Program-made: the position numbers and the translations under genes | In this document: positions 41,439 through 48,540 of the stretch, piece after piece | Numbering within the stretch: position 1 is the first letter of the stretch | Layout: every line of letters begins with the position of its first letter | Assembly: GCA_022794215.1 (NCBI GenBank) | Contig: JAAWEH010000021.1 | Location: 1-64,000, forward strand | Direction: 5' to 3' | Source of the DNA: Oscillospiraceae bacterium | Lineage (GTDB): Bacteria; Bacillota; Clostridia; Oscillospirales; Oscillospiraceae | DNA: 64,000 nucleotides | Notes under the pieces: generated by a model | What the model saw: only the letters and a program-made list of their open reading frames with translations | Told to the model about the DNA's origin: nothing | The model's database searches: none

Positions 41439-43544
41439 ATGAAAAAGAACAAACGGTTCCTGTCTCTGGCCATGGCGCTGGCTATGACGGCGTCTCTGGT
41501 AACCCCGGCCTTTGCCGCGGAAGAGAAAGACATCACAATCCTTTATACCAACGATGTTCACGCCAACTTCAGCAAGAAGATCACCTACTCCATGGTGGCC
41601 GGCTACCGGGACAGCCTGGAGAACGTACTTTTGCTGGATGCCGGCGACCACATTCAGAATACGGTCTATGGCAATATCAACACCGCCAACGTGGTCATCG
41701 ACATCATGAACGCCGCCGGGTACGATGCGGCCACCCTGGGCAATCACGACTTTGGCAACATGGCGGTGCTGGAGAATGCCGAGTTTGACTACCTGGCCTG
41801 TAACGTGTTCCGTGACGGAAAGGCCTTTGCGGATCCCTACAAGGTCTATGAGGTGGGCGGCAAGAAGGTGGCCGTCGTGGGCATCTCCACCCCGGAGACC
41901 ATTGCCAAGTCCACCCCCACCAACTTCATGGACGAAGAGGGCAACATCATCTTCACCTTCGGCGAAGGGGAGGACGGCGCCGTTCTTTACGGCCTGGTTC
42001 AGGACGCCATTGACGCTGCCGCTAAGGAAGCTGACTACGTGGTGGCCCTGGGACACCTGGGCTCGGACGAAAGCGCCGCTCCCTATTCCAGCCTGGACGT
42101 GATCAAGAACACCACCGGTCTGACCGCCTTTATCGACGGTCACTCCCACACTGAGATGGAGGGCCAGCAGGTGGCCGACAAGGAGGGCAAGACCGTGGTG
42201 CTCACCCAGACCGGCTGTAACTTTGCCACCCTGGGCCAGATGACCATCGCCGCCGACGGCACCGTCACCACCAAATTGCTGAAGAACACCGATCTGGCCG
42301 AGGTCGAGCCCAACGCCGAGACCAAGAAGGTGGAGGAGGACTTCGCCGCCGCAACCGAGGCCCTGAAGAGCGTGGTCATCGGCGCCACCGAGGTAGCCCT
42401 GCCCATCAACGACGAAAACGGCGTGCGCATGGTGCGCAAGCAGGATTCCGCCATTGCCAACTTCTGCACCGACGCTTTCTATCATATGTACGACGGCACC
42501 GAGTACACCGTAGACATCGCCATCCAGGTGGGCGGCAACATTCGGGCCACTGTGGATGCGGGCGAGATCACCTATCAGGATGTGACGACCCTCTATCCCT
42601 GGAACAACGGCGTGTGCCTGGTGCGGCTTACCGGCCAGCAGGTGCTGGACGCTCTAGAGTGGGGCGCCAAGTCCCTCAATGCCGAGGGCACCGCTGAAGA
42701 CGGCGGCTTCCTGAACGTGGCCGGCCTGAAGTATACCGTCAACGTGGCCATTCCCTCCACCGTGCAGAAGAGCGAGAACAACATCTGGACCGGCGGCCCC
42801 ACCGGTGAGTACCGGGTGGTGGATGTTCAGGTCCTGGATCGGAAGACCGGCGAGTATGTCCCCCTGGATCTGGACGCCAAGTACAACCTGGCCGGTGTGA
42901 ACTACACCCTGATGCAGATGGGCGACGGCTTCAACATGTTTGACGGCGAGTATATCCGCAACAACACCACCGTGGATTACCTGACTCTGGTTCAGTATCT
43001 GGAGACCTTCCCCGTGGACGAGGCCACCGGCCTGCACACCATCAAGGCCGGCATGGGGTATGACGACATCAACGGCCAGGGCCGTATCATCGTGATCAAC
43101 CGTCCCGCCGATCTGGATGAGAACGAGTGGTGGTACGAGACCGCGCTGAAGGTTCTGGACAACAAGCTGATGAAGGGCAACGAAAACGGCTTCGACGCCC
43201 TGGCCAACGTGACCAAGGCCACCGTGTTCCAGACCCTCTACAACATGGAGGGCAAGCCCGTTGCCGCCGAGGACGCCAAGACCATTGCCATGCCCGAGGA
43301 TGCCTGGTATGCCGACGCCATGAACTGGGCCGCCAACAATAACCTCTTCGCCGAGGAAGCCTACAACGAGGACAACGTGATTGACCGGGCCGGCATCAAG
43401 GCCATTCTGGACGCCTACTGTGCGCTGAAGGACGTCAACAGCGAAGGTCTGATGAAGGGCAACGAAAGCGGCGATCTGATGCTGGACAAGGCCCTGACCC
43501 GCGCCGAATTTGCCCAGGTTTTGGTGAACCTGACCGAGAAATAA
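41439..43544 (+). CDS. Secreted 5'-nucleotidase (UshA-like metallophosphatase plus nucleotidase C domain) with C-terminal SLH-like repeats
   Basis: Signal peptide MKKNKRFLSLAMALAMTASLVTPAFAAEE; ITILYTNDVHANF; TLGNHDFGNM; C-terminal LMKGNESGDLMLDKALTRAEFAQVLVNL. Confidence 0.92.
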   Translation: MKKNKRFLSLAMALAMTASLVTPAFAAEEKDITILYTNDVHANFSKKITYSMVAGYRDSLENVLLLDAGDHIQNTVYGNINTANVVIDIMNAAGYDAATLGNHDFGNMAVLENAEFDYLACNVFRDGKAFADPYKVYEVGGKKVAVVGISTPETIAKSTPTNFMDEEGNIIFTFGEGEDGAVLYGLVQDAIDAAAKEADYVVALGHLGSDESAAPYSSLDVIKNTTGLTAFIDGHSHTEMEGQQVADKEGKTVVLTQTGCNFATLGQMTIAADGTVTTKLLKNTDLAEVEPNAETKKVEEDFAAATEALKSVVIGATEVALPINDENGVRMVRKQDSAIANFCTDAFYHMYDGTEYTVDIAIQVGGNIRATVDAGEITYQDVTTLYPWNNGVCLVRLTGQQVLDALEWGAKSLNAEGTAEDGGFLNVAGLKYTVNVAIPSTVQKSENNIWTGGPTGEYRVVDVQVLDRKTGEYVPLDLDAKYNLAGVNYTLMQMGDGFNMFDGEYIRNNTTVDYLTLVQYLETFPVDEATGLHTIKAGMGYDDINGQGRIIVINRPADLDENEWWYETALKVLDNKLMKGNENGFDALANVTKATVFQTLYNMEGKPVAAEDAKTIAMPEDAWYADAMNWAANNNLFAEEAYNEDNVIDRAGIKAILDAYCALKDVNSEGLMKGNESGDLMLDKALTRAEFAQVLVNLTEK

Positions 43545-43737: not shown

Positions 43738-45843
43738 ATGAAGCAGAGCAAAAAGCTCCTGTCCCTGGCGCTGGCTCTCACCATGGGTCTCTCTCTGGCC
43801 ACCCCCGCTATGGCCGCCGATGAGACCAAGACCGAGACCGGCAAAATTGTCATTCTTCACACCAACGACGTCCATTGCGGCATCGACCAGGCTGTGAAGG
43901 AGAATGAGGAGACCGGCGAGAAGACGGTCACCAACATCGGCTATGCCGGCGTTGCCGCCTACAAGGCCGAGATGGAGGCCCAGTATGGCGAGGGCAACGT
44001 CACTTTGGTGGACGCCGGCGACGCCATCCAGGGCGGCCCCATCGGCACCCTGACCAAGGGCGCTGCCATCGTCGAGATCATGAACGAGGTGGGCTACGAC
44101 CTGGCCATCCCCGGCAACCATGAGTTTGACTACGGCATGGACAACTTCCTGTCCCTGGCCAAGGATACCGCCAAGTATCCCTATATCTGCGCCAACTTCA
44201 CCGACCTGAAGGGCAATGCCGTTTTTGACGCCTACAAGGTCGTGACCTACGGCGAGGTGAAGGTGGCCTATGTGGGCATCGACACCCCTGAGACCTTTGC
44301 TAAGTCTACCCCCACCTTCTTCCAGGACGGCGAGGGCAACTACATCTACGGCTTCCAGCAGGGCAACGAGGGCAAGGACCTCTACGAGTGCGTGCAGAAG
44401 GCCGTTGACGCCGCCAAGAAGGACGGCGCCGACTACGTGGTGGCCATGGGCCACCTGGGCGACAACGGCTCCACCGAGGAGTGGAAGGCCCAGAGCGTCA
44501 TCGCCAACACCACCGGCATCGACGTGTTCATCGACGGCCACTCCCACGAGGAGATCGAGAAGACCGCGGCCAACAAGGACGGCAAGGACGTGGTCTGGGC
44601 CCAGACCGGCACCAAGCTGGCCAACATCGGCAAGATCGTTATCGACACCGAGACCAAGGAGATCACCCACGAGCTGGTGTCCGGCTACGACAAGCAGGAC
44701 GAGGCCGTGGCCGCTTTCGTGAAGGAGAAGAACGACGCCTTCGAGGCTGAGCTGAAGAAGGTAGTGGCCACCTCCGAGGTGGAGCTCACCGTCAACGGCG
44801 CCGACGGCAAGCGGGCTATCCGCAACGGCGAGACCAACCTGGGCGACCTGTGCGCCGACGCTTACCTCACCATGCTGGAGGCTGACGTGGCCATCGTCAA
44901 CGGCGGCGGTATCCGCGCCAACATTGCTGCCGGTGAGGTCACCTACGAGGACATCATCAACGTCCATCCCTTCGGCAACGAGGGCTGCCTGGTGGAGACC
45001 AAGGGTCAGAACATTCTGGATGCCCTGGAGATGGCCTCCCGCCTGTATCCCGAGGAGTGCGGCGGCTTCCTGCAGGTTGCCGGCCTCACTTACACCATCA
45101 ACGCCTCCATCCCCTCCTCCGTGGTTCTCAGCGATGAGGGCGAGTTTGTGAAGGTGGACGGCGACTACCGCGTCACCGACGTGATGGTGGCCGGCGAGCC
45201 TCTGGATCTGGAGAAGACCTACACTGTGGCCTCCCACAACTATATGCTCAAGGACGGCGGCGACGGCCTGGTCATGTTCAAGACCAGCAACCTGCTGAAG
45301 GACAGCGTCATGATCGACAACGCCATCCTCATCAACTATATCGTAGAGGCCCTGGAGGGCAAGGTCACCGAGGCCCAGTACGGCGCCTCTCAGGGCCGCA
45401 TCCTTTTCGTCCCCGCCGACGTGGCCGTGGATGCCTGGTATTACAATGTGGTCAAGGAGACCCTGGCCACCGGCCTGATGCAGGGCACCGACAAGGGCTT
45501 TGAGGCTCTGACCGACGTCACCGTGGCCAGCGTGCTGCAGACCCTCTACAACGCTCAGGGCAAGCCCGACGCCACCGACGCCGAGGTGTGGTACACCGAC
45601 GCTGTGAACTGGGCCACCAAGAACGAGCTGGTGAAGGAGTTCACCGAGGACGCCGCCGCCACCCGCGGTGAGGTGAAGGACATTCTGGACGCATACTGCG
45701 CCATGCTGAACGTCACTCCCGAGTCTCCCCTGATGAAGGGCAACGAGAACGGCGACCTGATGCTGGACAAGACTCTGACCCGCTCCGAGTTTGCCCAGAT
45801 CCTGGTGAACCTGTCCCAGCTTCCCATGCCCCTGGCTGACTGA
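43738..45843 (+). CDS. Secreted 5'-nucleotidase with C-terminal SLH-like repeats (paralogue)
   Basis: Signal peptide MKQSKKLLSLALALTMGLSLATPAMAAD; IVILHTNDVHCGID; IPGNHEFDYGMD; C-terminal LMKGNENGDLMLDKTLTRSEFAQILVNL. Confidence 0.92.
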   Translation: MKQSKKLLSLALALTMGLSLATPAMAADETKTETGKIVILHTNDVHCGIDQAVKENEETGEKTVTNIGYAGVAAYKAEMEAQYGEGNVTLVDAGDAIQGGPIGTLTKGAAIVEIMNEVGYDLAIPGNHEFDYGMDNFLSLAKDTAKYPYICANFTDLKGNAVFDAYKVVTYGEVKVAYVGIDTPETFAKSTPTFFQDGEGNYIYGFQQGNEGKDLYECVQKAVDAAKKDGADYVVAMGHLGDNGSTEEWKAQSVIANTTGIDVFIDGHSHEEIEKTAANKDGKDVVWAQTGTKLANIGKIVIDTETKEITHELVSGYDKQDEAVAAFVKEKNDAFEAELKKVVATSEVELTVNGADGKRAIRNGETNLGDLCADAYLTMLEADVAIVNGGGIRANIAAGEVTYEDIINVHPFGNEGCLVETKGQNILDALEMASRLYPEECGGFLQVAGLTYTINASIPSSVVLSDEGEFVKVDGDYRVTDVMVAGEPLDLEKTYTVASHNYMLKDGGDGLVMFKTSNLLKDSVMIDNAILINYIVEALEGKVTEAQYGASQGRILFVPADVAVDAWYYNVVKETLATGLMQGTDKGFEALTDVTVASVLQTLYNAQGKPDATDAEVWYTDAVNWATKNELVKEFTEDAAATRGEVKDILDAYCAMLNVTPESPLMKGNENGDLMLDKTLTRSEFAQILVNLSQLPMPLAD

Positions 45844-45852
45844 TTCCATAGA

Positions 45853-45888
45853 AAAAAGAGGCCCGAGGATTTCCTCGGGCCTCTTTCC
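45853..45888 (+). terminator. Intrinsic terminator
   Basis: aaagaggcccgagga / tcctcgggcctcttt. Confidence 0.85.
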
Positions 45889-46002
45889 CTTTTCATCTCG
45901 GTGGAAAGGGGAGAAATGCCATTGTACTTTTATAGACTCTATGGTATGATAATACCGCACTTTTGCCCCAGGAAAAATTCACAAAAGAAAGGTGAGACAA
46001 GT

Positions 46003-48396
46003 ATGAATTGGAAAAAGCCCCTTTCCCTGGCTTTGGCTGCGGCCCTGAGCGCGTCTCTGGCCGTCCCCGCCTTTGCCGCAGAGGAGACCGCCGCCCCCTG
46101 GTACGCGGAGGCCCAGGCCTACGTCACCGAAAAAGGCATCATGACTGGCACCGAGAACGGCTTCGAGCCCGAGGCCGAGATCACCACCGCCACCGTGCTC
46201 CAGGCCCTTTATAACAAGGTGGGCAAGCCCGACGTGACCAAGTCCAACGACCCCTGGTACATCCGGGCCCTGACCTGGGCCGAGGAGGAGGGGATTTTCC
46301 AGCCTGAGGGGGAGACCCCCTTTGCCGACGGCCCCGTGAGCCGGGCTCTCACCCTGGACATCCTCACCGCTTTCTGCGCCAAGAACGGTCTGGCCTCTGA
46401 CGGCCTGATGCAGGGCAATGAGAACGGCGACATGATGGCCGATAAGGTCCTGACCCGGGCTGAGTTCGCCACCGTCCTTATGCGCCTGGATCAGCTGACC
46501 CCCTACTTTAAGGAGACCGTGGTGGCCATCGAAGCTGCCGAAGCCGACAGCATCCCCGCCCATACCATCCCCGGCACCCTCTGCGCCCCCGCTGAGGTTG
46601 AGGGCAAGAAGCTGCCTGCCGTGGTAATGCTCCACGGCACCGGCTCCAACCGGGAGGAAGCGGGCAATGGCTACCAGATGGCCGCCCCCGTCATGGCCGA
46701 CAACGGCATCGTCACCCTGCGCATCGACTTTATGGGCAGCGGCGATTCCACCGCCGACTACTCCGACTACTGCTACTCCTCCGCCAACCTGGACGCCAAG
46801 GCCGCCGCCGATTACCTGGCTACCCTGGACTACGTGGACGCCGACAAGATCGCCGTCATGGGCTGGAGCCAGGGCGGCACCAACGCCCTGCTGGCCGCGG
46901 CCGCCTATCCCGAGACCTTCCACGCCGTCATTACCTGGGCCGGGGCCCTGACTCTCAACGAGAGCACCGGCCTCTTCGGGGACAAGACCTTTGACGAGGC
47001 CAAGGCCATTGCCGACAAGGACGGCTCCTACGAGATGACCTTTGACTGGCGGGATTCTCTCCAGGTGGGCAAACGCTGGTTCAAGGAAGTGGACGAGACC
47101 GACGTGGAGGCCGAGACCGCCAAGATCAAGGCCCCCATCCTGGCCATCAACGGCCTGGCCGACACCACTGTAGACCCGGAGAACGCCCGGAAGATCGTGG
47201 CCGCCTCCAAGAACGAGGCCACCAAGCTCTACCTCATCGAGAACTGCGACCACACCTACAACGTGTTCTCCGGCGACTTTACCGCCCTCTATGAGACCGT
47301 CAACGCCGGTATCGGCTTCCTCCAGGAGAATCTGAACGGCAAGGTGGGTCCCACCTCCGCCGCTGCCATCAGCAAGTACGGCAATGTGGGTACCAGCCTG
47401 TCCATGGATATTCTGGCCGGCGCCGGCTATGAGGTGGGCGACATCCTCACCGTGGAGATCACCGGCCAGGAGCCCATCACCCTGCCCCTGGGCACCGGCT
47501 ACTCCAACGTGGATCAGGGCAGCCCCCTGGCCCTGGCCGATACCTCCAACAACACCCTGGCCCTGGCCATCAACCGGGGCGACTTCGCCACCACCTACGG
47601 CCTGGGCGCCAAGGGTGAGGACGGCGTTTACGCCATTACCGATAACGTGACCATCACCGTATCCATGGCCGAAAAGGGCGGCTACCTGGCCGAGATGGAA
47701 ATCCGGGAGCTGGATTCCAAGCGCACCAACGCCCGTGAGGACTATGCTTCCGACGATGTCTTTGCCAACTTCCGCGCCATCACCCTGGGCGACATCGCCG
47801 AGGGCAGGCTCTACCGCACCTCCAGCCCCGTGAACCCTGAGCTGGGCCGCAACGCTTATGCCGACGGCTTCCTGAAGGAGGCCGGTGTGAAGACCGTGGT
47901 GAACCTGGCCGACAGCCAGGAGGCCATGGAGGGCTACGAGGGCTATGCCGAGAGTTACTACGCCACCCTGAACGTGGTTCCCCTGAACATGGGTGTGGAC
48001 ATGTATTCTGACGACGCCAAGGCCAGCCTGAAGGCCGGCTTCCAGTTCATGATCGCCAACGAGGGCCCCTATGCCTTCCACTGCACCGAGGGCAAGGATC
48101 GTGCCGGCTACTTCGCCATGGTGCTGGAGGCCCTGATGGGCGCCGGAGTGGAGGAGATCACCGAGGACTACATGCTCTCCTTTGAGAACTACTACCACGT
48201 GGAGAAGGGCTCCGAGCAGTGGACCAAGATCGCTGAGAGCAACATTGAGAAGGATCTTCTCAAGCTCACCGGTGCTGAGGATGCCGACGCTCTGGCCAAG
48301 GCCGACCTCCAGAAGGCCGCTGAGACCTACCTCACCGAGACCATCGGCCTCACCGCTGCCGAGGTCACCGCTCTGAAGGACGCTCTGAGCAAGTAA
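46003..48396 (+). CDS. Secreted multidomain protein: SLH-like repeats, alpha/beta hydrolase, Tyr-phosphatase-like (HCx5R) domain
   Basis: Signal peptide MNWKKPLSLALAAALSASLAVPAFAAE; LMQGNENGDMMADKVLTRAEFATVLMRL; VVMLHGTGSNREE...VMGWSQGGTNALL; GRLYRTSSPVNPELGRN...HCTEGKDRAGYFAMVL. Confidence 0.9.
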   Translation: MNWKKPLSLALAAALSASLAVPAFAAEETAAPWYAEAQAYVTEKGIMTGTENGFEPEAEITTATVLQALYNKVGKPDVTKSNDPWYIRALTWAEEEGIFQPEGETPFADGPVSRALTLDILTAFCAKNGLASDGLMQGNENGDMMADKVLTRAEFATVLMRLDQLTPYFKETVVAIEAAEADSIPAHTIPGTLCAPAEVEGKKLPAVVMLHGTGSNREEAGNGYQMAAPVMADNGIVTLRIDFMGSGDSTADYSDYCYSSANLDAKAAADYLATLDYVDADKIAVMGWSQGGTNALLAAAAYPETFHAVITWAGALTLNESTGLFGDKTFDEAKAIADKDGSYEMTFDWRDSLQVGKRWFKEVDETDVEAETAKIKAPILAINGLADTTVDPENARKIVAASKNEATKLYLIENCDHTYNVFSGDFTALYETVNAGIGFLQENLNGKVGPTSAAAISKYGNVGTSLSMDILAGAGYEVGDILTVEITGQEPITLPLGTGYSNVDQGSPLALADTSNNTLALAINRGDFATTYGLGAKGEDGVYAITDNVTITVSMAEKGGYLAEMEIRELDSKRTNAREDYASDDVFANFRAITLGDIAEGRLYRTSSPVNPELGRNAYADGFLKEAGVKTVVNLADSQEAMEGYEGYAESYYATLNVVPLNMGVDMYSDDAKASLKAGFQFMIANEGPYAFHCTEGKDRAGYFAMVLEALMGAGVEEITEDYMLSFENYYHVEKGSEQWTKIAESNIEKDLLKLTGAEDADALAKADLQKAAETYLTETIGLTAAEVTALKDALSK

Positions 48397-48423
48397 GAAG
48401 AACCCCCTTTTGGGGGAAGATAG

Positions 48424-48466
48424 AAAGCGGGGTGCGCGGCAAACTGCCGCGCACCCCGCTTTTTTG
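48424..48466 (+). terminator. Intrinsic terminator
   Basis: gcggggtgcgcggca aac tgccgcgcaccccgc then tttttt. Confidence 0.9.
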
Positions 48467-48540
48467 ATCCGGCTCTTGTATCTTTCCAGAAAATCCGCTA
48501 CAATTTGGAAAGAAAACCAGCAAAAAGAGGAGGGTCAGCC

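Follow-up and report, generated by a model that had tools for sequence, protein, structure and literature searches.

A predicted exported esterase-phosphatase of an Oscillospiraceae bacterium carries the C-terminal half of a SAM-hydrolase-like enzyme, in a module recurrently fused to 5'-nucleotidases

The window, that is, the whole stretch of 64,000 nucleotides analysed, contains on its forward strand an open reading frame of 797 aa, running from an ATG at 46003 to a TAA stop at 48396 (Table 1). An in-frame GTG at 45901 is an alternative start; the start was placed at 46003 because AAAGGTGAG lies just 5' of this position and the signal peptide MNWKKPLSLALAAALSASLAVPAFA follows it. All the matches in a Pfam scan of the protein exceeded the curated cut-offs, and they agreed with the original prediction that a single signal-peptide protein combines an SLH-like N-terminus, a serine hydrolase and a HCx5R phosphatase. 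AlphaFold, which the prediction had proposed as a check, gave a confident model over the whole 797-aa chain (mean pLDDT 91.5, pTM 0.84). Relatives in congeneric genomes have the same layout at 57-60% identity, indicating that it is neither a product of chance nor an isolated freak. The region is described here as a gene predicted to encode an exported, wall-anchored protein in which an esterase is linked to a phosphatase of lipid/inositol type that carries half of a SAM-hydrolase (fluorinase-like) enzyme.

Table 1. Features of the 797-aa gene and its surroundings (positions in the window).
Feature	Position	Strand	Basis
UshA-type 5'-nucleotidase with SLH-like tail	41439..43544	+	Pfam 5_nucleotid_C 7.6e-32, Metallophos 8.1e-09
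UshA-type 5'-nucleotidase with SLH-like tail, directly upstream; relatives fused to 797-aa-type protein elsewhere	43738..45843	+	Pfam 5_nucleotid_C 2.8e-38, Metallophos 3.7e-12
Intrinsic terminator, 14-pair, between nucleotidase and 797-aa gene	45855..45886	+	Sequence
CDS, 797 aa: signal peptide/SLH-like repeats/alpha/beta hydrolase/SAM_HAT_C/Y_phosphatase3 (ALP)	46003..48396	+	ORF, Pfam, AlphaFold
Signal peptide MNWKKPLSLALAAALSASLAVPAFA	46003..46077	+	Judged from sequence
Three SLH-like repeats, degenerate, residues 31-165	46093..46497	+	Pfam SLH, motifs at residues 60, 112, 150
Alpha/beta hydrolase, feruloyl-esterase/lipase type, residues ~187-445	46561..47337	+	Pfam, PDB relatives, Foldseek
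GWSQGG nucleophile elbow, Ser289; triad partners Asp387, His417	46861..46878	+	Conservation in 16/16 covering rows
HAT-C region by module profile; Pfam core 47368-47610	47326..47691	+	Pfam PF20257, profile vs PDB
Y_phosphatase3/atypical lipid phosphatase-type domain, residues 598-795	47794..48387	+	Pfam, profile vs PDB
P-loop HCTEGKDRAG, fits HCXXGKDR[TA]G	48079..48108	+	Sequence, signature PMC3091653, conservation
Strong hairpin, T run at end, after 797-aa gene; probable terminator	48422..48464	+	Fold of 48415-48470, -42.5 kcal/mol

The SLH match (1.7e-10, 41.2 bits against a cut-off of 20.8) covers repeats of which only the third has a good LTRAE motif, the ITRAE-type motifs being otherwise degenerate. 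SLH anchoring needs the pyruvyl transferase CsaB, which was detected in the genome of the window (238.7 bits, cut-off 213.1) and in all the genomes tested (n = 6/6); the 797-aa protein would be anchored outside the cell. Two nucleotidase genes precede it; in the window the three genes are separate, and their products share one type of SLH-like anchor. Both nucleotidases fell below the cut-offs of the NCBIfam Nt5e, UshA and NadN models. A single operon is unlikely, given that a 14-pair terminator intervenes and that the 797-aa gene has its own terminators.

The hydrolase region matched Peptidase_S9 (2.4e-17) and Hydrolase_4 (4.6e-13) in Pfam, with 9pjb, 8b4u, 7q4h and 7z2u as PDB relatives. Its Foldseek neighbours (7z2u, 7q4j and 8b4u; target-normalised TM 0.84-0.88) group it with feruloyl esterases, TTL lipase and PET46. 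Ser289, Asp387 and His417 were invariant in the 16/16 alignment rows covering them, so the predicted serine hydrolase appears to have an intact triad, through which catalysis would proceed. The alpha/beta fold and the triad are common to feruloyl/cinnamoyl esterases and related lipases (LJ0536, Est1E, L. buchneri FAE, TTL, PET46), whereas the window hydrolase shares only ~20-25% identity with them and lies within a multi-domain wall protein. In L038 and L040 a different hydrolase type (HGHGGSKDE, GYSMGG) occupies its position, as if the esterase had been swapped. A segment of ~170 aa (DYL...WFLTGKT.YTIQGMMVSK...) between the hydrolase and the HAT-C recurs in several of these proteins (residues ~497-672 of L040, ~500-677 of L042, N-terminal in L049); it had no Pfam match in L042.

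The C-terminal region matched Y_phosphatase3 (PF13350; 3.3e-18, 67 bits against a cut-off of 22.2). With a profile of the HAT-C and phosphatase regions searched against the PDB, the phosphatase part found the C. difficile PTP 8dhi (1.4e-8) and MptpB 1ywf (1.6e-8), and Foldseek with a stand-alone copy (L047) found PtpB and the C. difficile PTP, and weakly SIW14 (a PP-IP phosphatase) and a PTP-like phytase. The HCx5R signature that had been noticed turned out to be an exact P-loop of the atypical lipid phosphatases (ALPs), HCXXGKDR[TA]G, in which Asp is catalytic and Lys binds the substrate (PMC3091653). Its Cys694 was kept in 32/32 rows and H, G, D and R each in 31/32, the single row with a degenerate P-loop being probably the truncated copy L098; Lys was replaced by Gln in 2/32 module rows. 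The phosphatase would act through a phosphocysteine at Cys694, Asp699 serving as acid/base and Lys698 making additional contacts to the phosphate. The catalytic residues behind the original prediction hold: the putative hydrolase triad and P-loop Cys are both conserved across the aligned relatives.

The P-loop and the Y_phosphatase3 fold are common to this domain and the ALPs (MptpB, Lmo1800, Pho16B; C. difficile PTP 8dhi), several of which are exported. In contrast to the ALPs as described in 2010, which consist of the phosphatase domain only (PMC3091653), the window phosphatase carries a HAT-C and shares its chain with an esterase and SLH repeats, and in relatives a nucleotidase is fused as well. 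Y_phosphatase3 scores in relatives ranged from 1e-48 to 1e-59 for free proteins of ~270 aa and from about 1e-13 to 1e-20 for HAT-C-linked phosphatases, indicating that the latter form a distinct, divergent branch. A genome of the same order (G039:C20:30867-44176) has five long Y_phosphatase3-matching ORFs or ORF parts (821-1295 aa, four distinct lengths) within ~13 kb.

The ~150-aa region between the hydrolase and the phosphatase, previously left unassigned, consists mostly of SAM_HAT_C (PF20257; residues 456-536, 3.4e-10, 40.5 bits against a cut-off of 25.5) and a conserved linker. The call was repeated in relatives, with E-values down to 9.6e-14; the HAT-C part of the profile found 7ccg (chlorinase ClA1; 1.8e-10), 2zbu (Thermotoga maritima; 3.8e-10) and PH0463 in the PDB, and Foldseek with the L047 copy gave weaker matches to fluorinase/chlorinase C-domains (rmsd 2.3-3.9 over about 102-107 columns). 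By sequence profile and fold, this is the C-terminal domain of the SAM hydroxide adenosyltransferases, fluorinase and chlorinase (DUF62), but their N-terminal catalytic domain PF01887, the part with the Asp-Arg-His triad, had no match in the Pfam scan of the 797-aa protein and was absent from the module-bearing genomes searched (n = 0/13), while it was present in 8/14 controls. SAM hydrolysis or halogenation by the HAT-C is ruled out, because the partner domain is missing from the protein and from these genomes. The fluorinase-type pocket motif IDxxFGN, with N215 (PMC4859513), has ISKYGN as its counterpart in the window. Its Asn position held N in 20, H in 8, D in 2, G in 2 and A in 1 of the 33 rows; KYG, the N-x-G motif and Pro495 were strongly conserved.

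Judged from the sequences, HAT-C and phosphatase are one conserved module of ~340 aa, which occurs alone (lipoprotein-like), duplicated or fused. In the ORF survey almost all the phosphatases of this branch have a HAT-C in front of them, the profile ends lying about 12-15 residues apart, and all the SAM_HAT_C matches in 60 relatives (n = 10/10) lay within HAT-C+phosphatase ORFs. Stand-alone copies measure 376-417 aa and have lipoprotein-like N-termini, and the one from L047 was modelled with confidence (pLDDT 92.2, pTM 0.85); tandem duplicates were found in L041, L045, L090, G916, G1014 and G1021. The distribution is patchy: counting the window's own genome each time, the module was present in 43/251 genomes of the family, 7/391 of the class and 10/399 of the phylum. 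In most lineages it comes without any hydrolase.

The recurrent partner of the module is a 5'-nucleotidase. A nucleotidase-SLH gene lies directly upstream in L032, L035, L039, L042, L049 and L100 also; in L041 a nucleotidase-like gene lies on the opposite side of the module gene, and in L099 a nucleotidase-hydrolase fusion adjoins it. All the parts, in the order nucleotidase-SLH-hydrolase-HAT-C-phosphatase, form a single protein in L033 (Pseudoflavonifractor sp. Marseille-P3106; 1355 aa), L091 (1367 aa) and L092 (1371 aa). Other arrangements were nucleotidase-SLH-HATC-phosphatase (L093, L095, L098), nucleotidase-HATC-phosphatase with an LPXTG-like end (L094), the reverse order HATC-phosphatase-SLH-nucleotidase (L096) and mega-proteins with several nucleotidase stretches (L089, 2047 aa; L090, 2590 aa); the fully read loci were chosen partly for long ORFs, and the fused share among them is not a population frequency. 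In the 2590-aa protein (L090:4458-12230) two HAT-C+phosphatase modules are combined with SLH and several stretches of nucleotidase. When the nucleotidase label was mapped on a tree of 55 modules, 11 changes were needed, and well-supported branches force at least 8 gains or losses. As there are only 1-7 5_nucleotid_C matches per genome, this linkage is not due to chance. An assembly artefact was ruled out, since the fusions recur in independent assemblies, including the single-contig G500 and G627, and in both domain orders. The module was also found without a nearby nucleotidase, in L043, L044, L046-L048, L101, L103 and L108.

The hydrolase, in turn, accompanies a 5'-nucleotidase without the module in L052 and in the second proteins of L092, L098 and L099. 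Esterase and phosphatase need not share a substrate, because either of them can accompany the nucleotidase when the other is absent (esterase, L052 and second proteins of L098 and L099; phosphatase, L093 and L095). The earlier proposal that one substrate is first deacylated and then dephosphorylated thus finds no backing, as the two modules travel independently and the recurrent partner is the 5'-nucleotidase instead.

The HAT-C would most likely help to position the substrate or to stabilise the phosphatase. It is possible, if on the unlikely side, that it serves as a structural beta-domain only, with no ligand, in an ordinary multi-domain esterase-phosphatase, which would be compatible with either of the alternative substrate readings given below. 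Consistent with this, the methionine-side Arg of fluorinases is not kept, the FGN Asn is replaced in 13/33 rows, and none of the 13 module-bearing genomes has the N-domain; however, the near-constant spacing directly before the phosphatase in nearly every copy argues against it, as does the conservation of KYG, N-x-G and Pro495, which does not separate folding from binding. That the orphan domain has retained the binding of a nucleoside or adenine-like group and directs the ALP phosphatase to nucleotide-type substrates, which would make HAT-C+phosphatase a new kind of ecto-phosphatase working in line with the 5'-nucleotidases at the cell surface of gut Bacillota, seems improbable.

As to the protein as a whole, we lean towards a modular hydrolase set, anchored at the surface of Oscillospiraceae-like gut bacteria, for the scavenging of phosphate, nucleosides and acyl groups from extracellular organic phosphates and esters. 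Its interchangeable parts would be the UshA-type 5'-nucleotidase, the alpha/beta esterase and the HAT-C+phosphatase module, with SLH repeats, an LPXTG anchor or a lipid anchor fastening them to the wall; they are encoded by separate genes in the window and fused in several orders in relatives. The domains found, their conserved catalytic residues, the recurrent fusion or adjacency and the absence of the N-domain are its basis, from which we infer the extracellular anchoring, the scavenging role and the substrates, and a shared pathway from the shared fusions; the own terminators of the window gene and the many genomes that have the module but no nearby nucleotidase speak against it. Degradation of inositol phosphates or phospholipids, by an ALP-kind phytase or phosphoinositide phosphatase with an esterase that removes acyl chains from these lipids or similar ones, is a doubtful alternative. 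The exact ALP P-loop with its extra Lys, the activity of Lmo1800 and LM1 on phosphoinositides (PMC3091653) and of the ALP Pho16B on InsP6 (PMC6409689), the weak matches to SIW14 and the PTP-like phytase, and the esterase neighbour 7q4j, a lipase solved with a monoacylglycerol intermediate, all fit it, but phosphatase and esterase each occur apart from the other, fusion is mainly to a 5'-nucleotidase, and the Lys gives way to Gln in those two rows. Very improbable is a role in host signalling, with host phosphotyrosine proteins or lipids dephosphorylated at the surface and adenosine made from ATP/AMP by the nucleotidase: the family resemblance to MptpB and a weak match of the window nucleotidases to the Nt5e_LPXTG model point that way, yet this match missed the cut-off (187.9 vs 1050 bits), the module also occurs at low frequency in other Bacillota families, and beyond export and wall anchoring no delivery signal was seen.

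All the parts are known domains; the combination HAT-C+ALP and its recurrent fusions to nucleotidase and esterase would be the new element. No published description of this layout was found in the open-licence literature searched, in line with the original statement that no described enzyme with it was known; the architecture may nevertheless be present, unremarked, in some databases. The window neighbours and fusion partners are of the UshA/YfkN surface type, for which fusions among nucleotidases are known: natural UshA-CpdB fusions join enzymes acting in series (PMC10454023), and the text found on fusions of this type makes no mention of ALP, HAT-C or esterase.

The evidence points to an undescribed modular surface system that would free organic molecules of their phosphate and acyl groups. 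Domains that are not known to be associated come together in it, the "half" SAM-hydrolase domain acquires a concrete role to test, and the repeated fusions connect a phosphatase class known mainly from pathogens (MptpB) with the scavenging of nucleotides in commensals. Confirmation would correct the automatic labels "tyrosine phosphatase" and "SAM hydroxide adenosyltransferase" for a recurrent family of surface proteins, and would add a surface hydrolase set with a bearing on the turnover of phosphate and purines in the gut.
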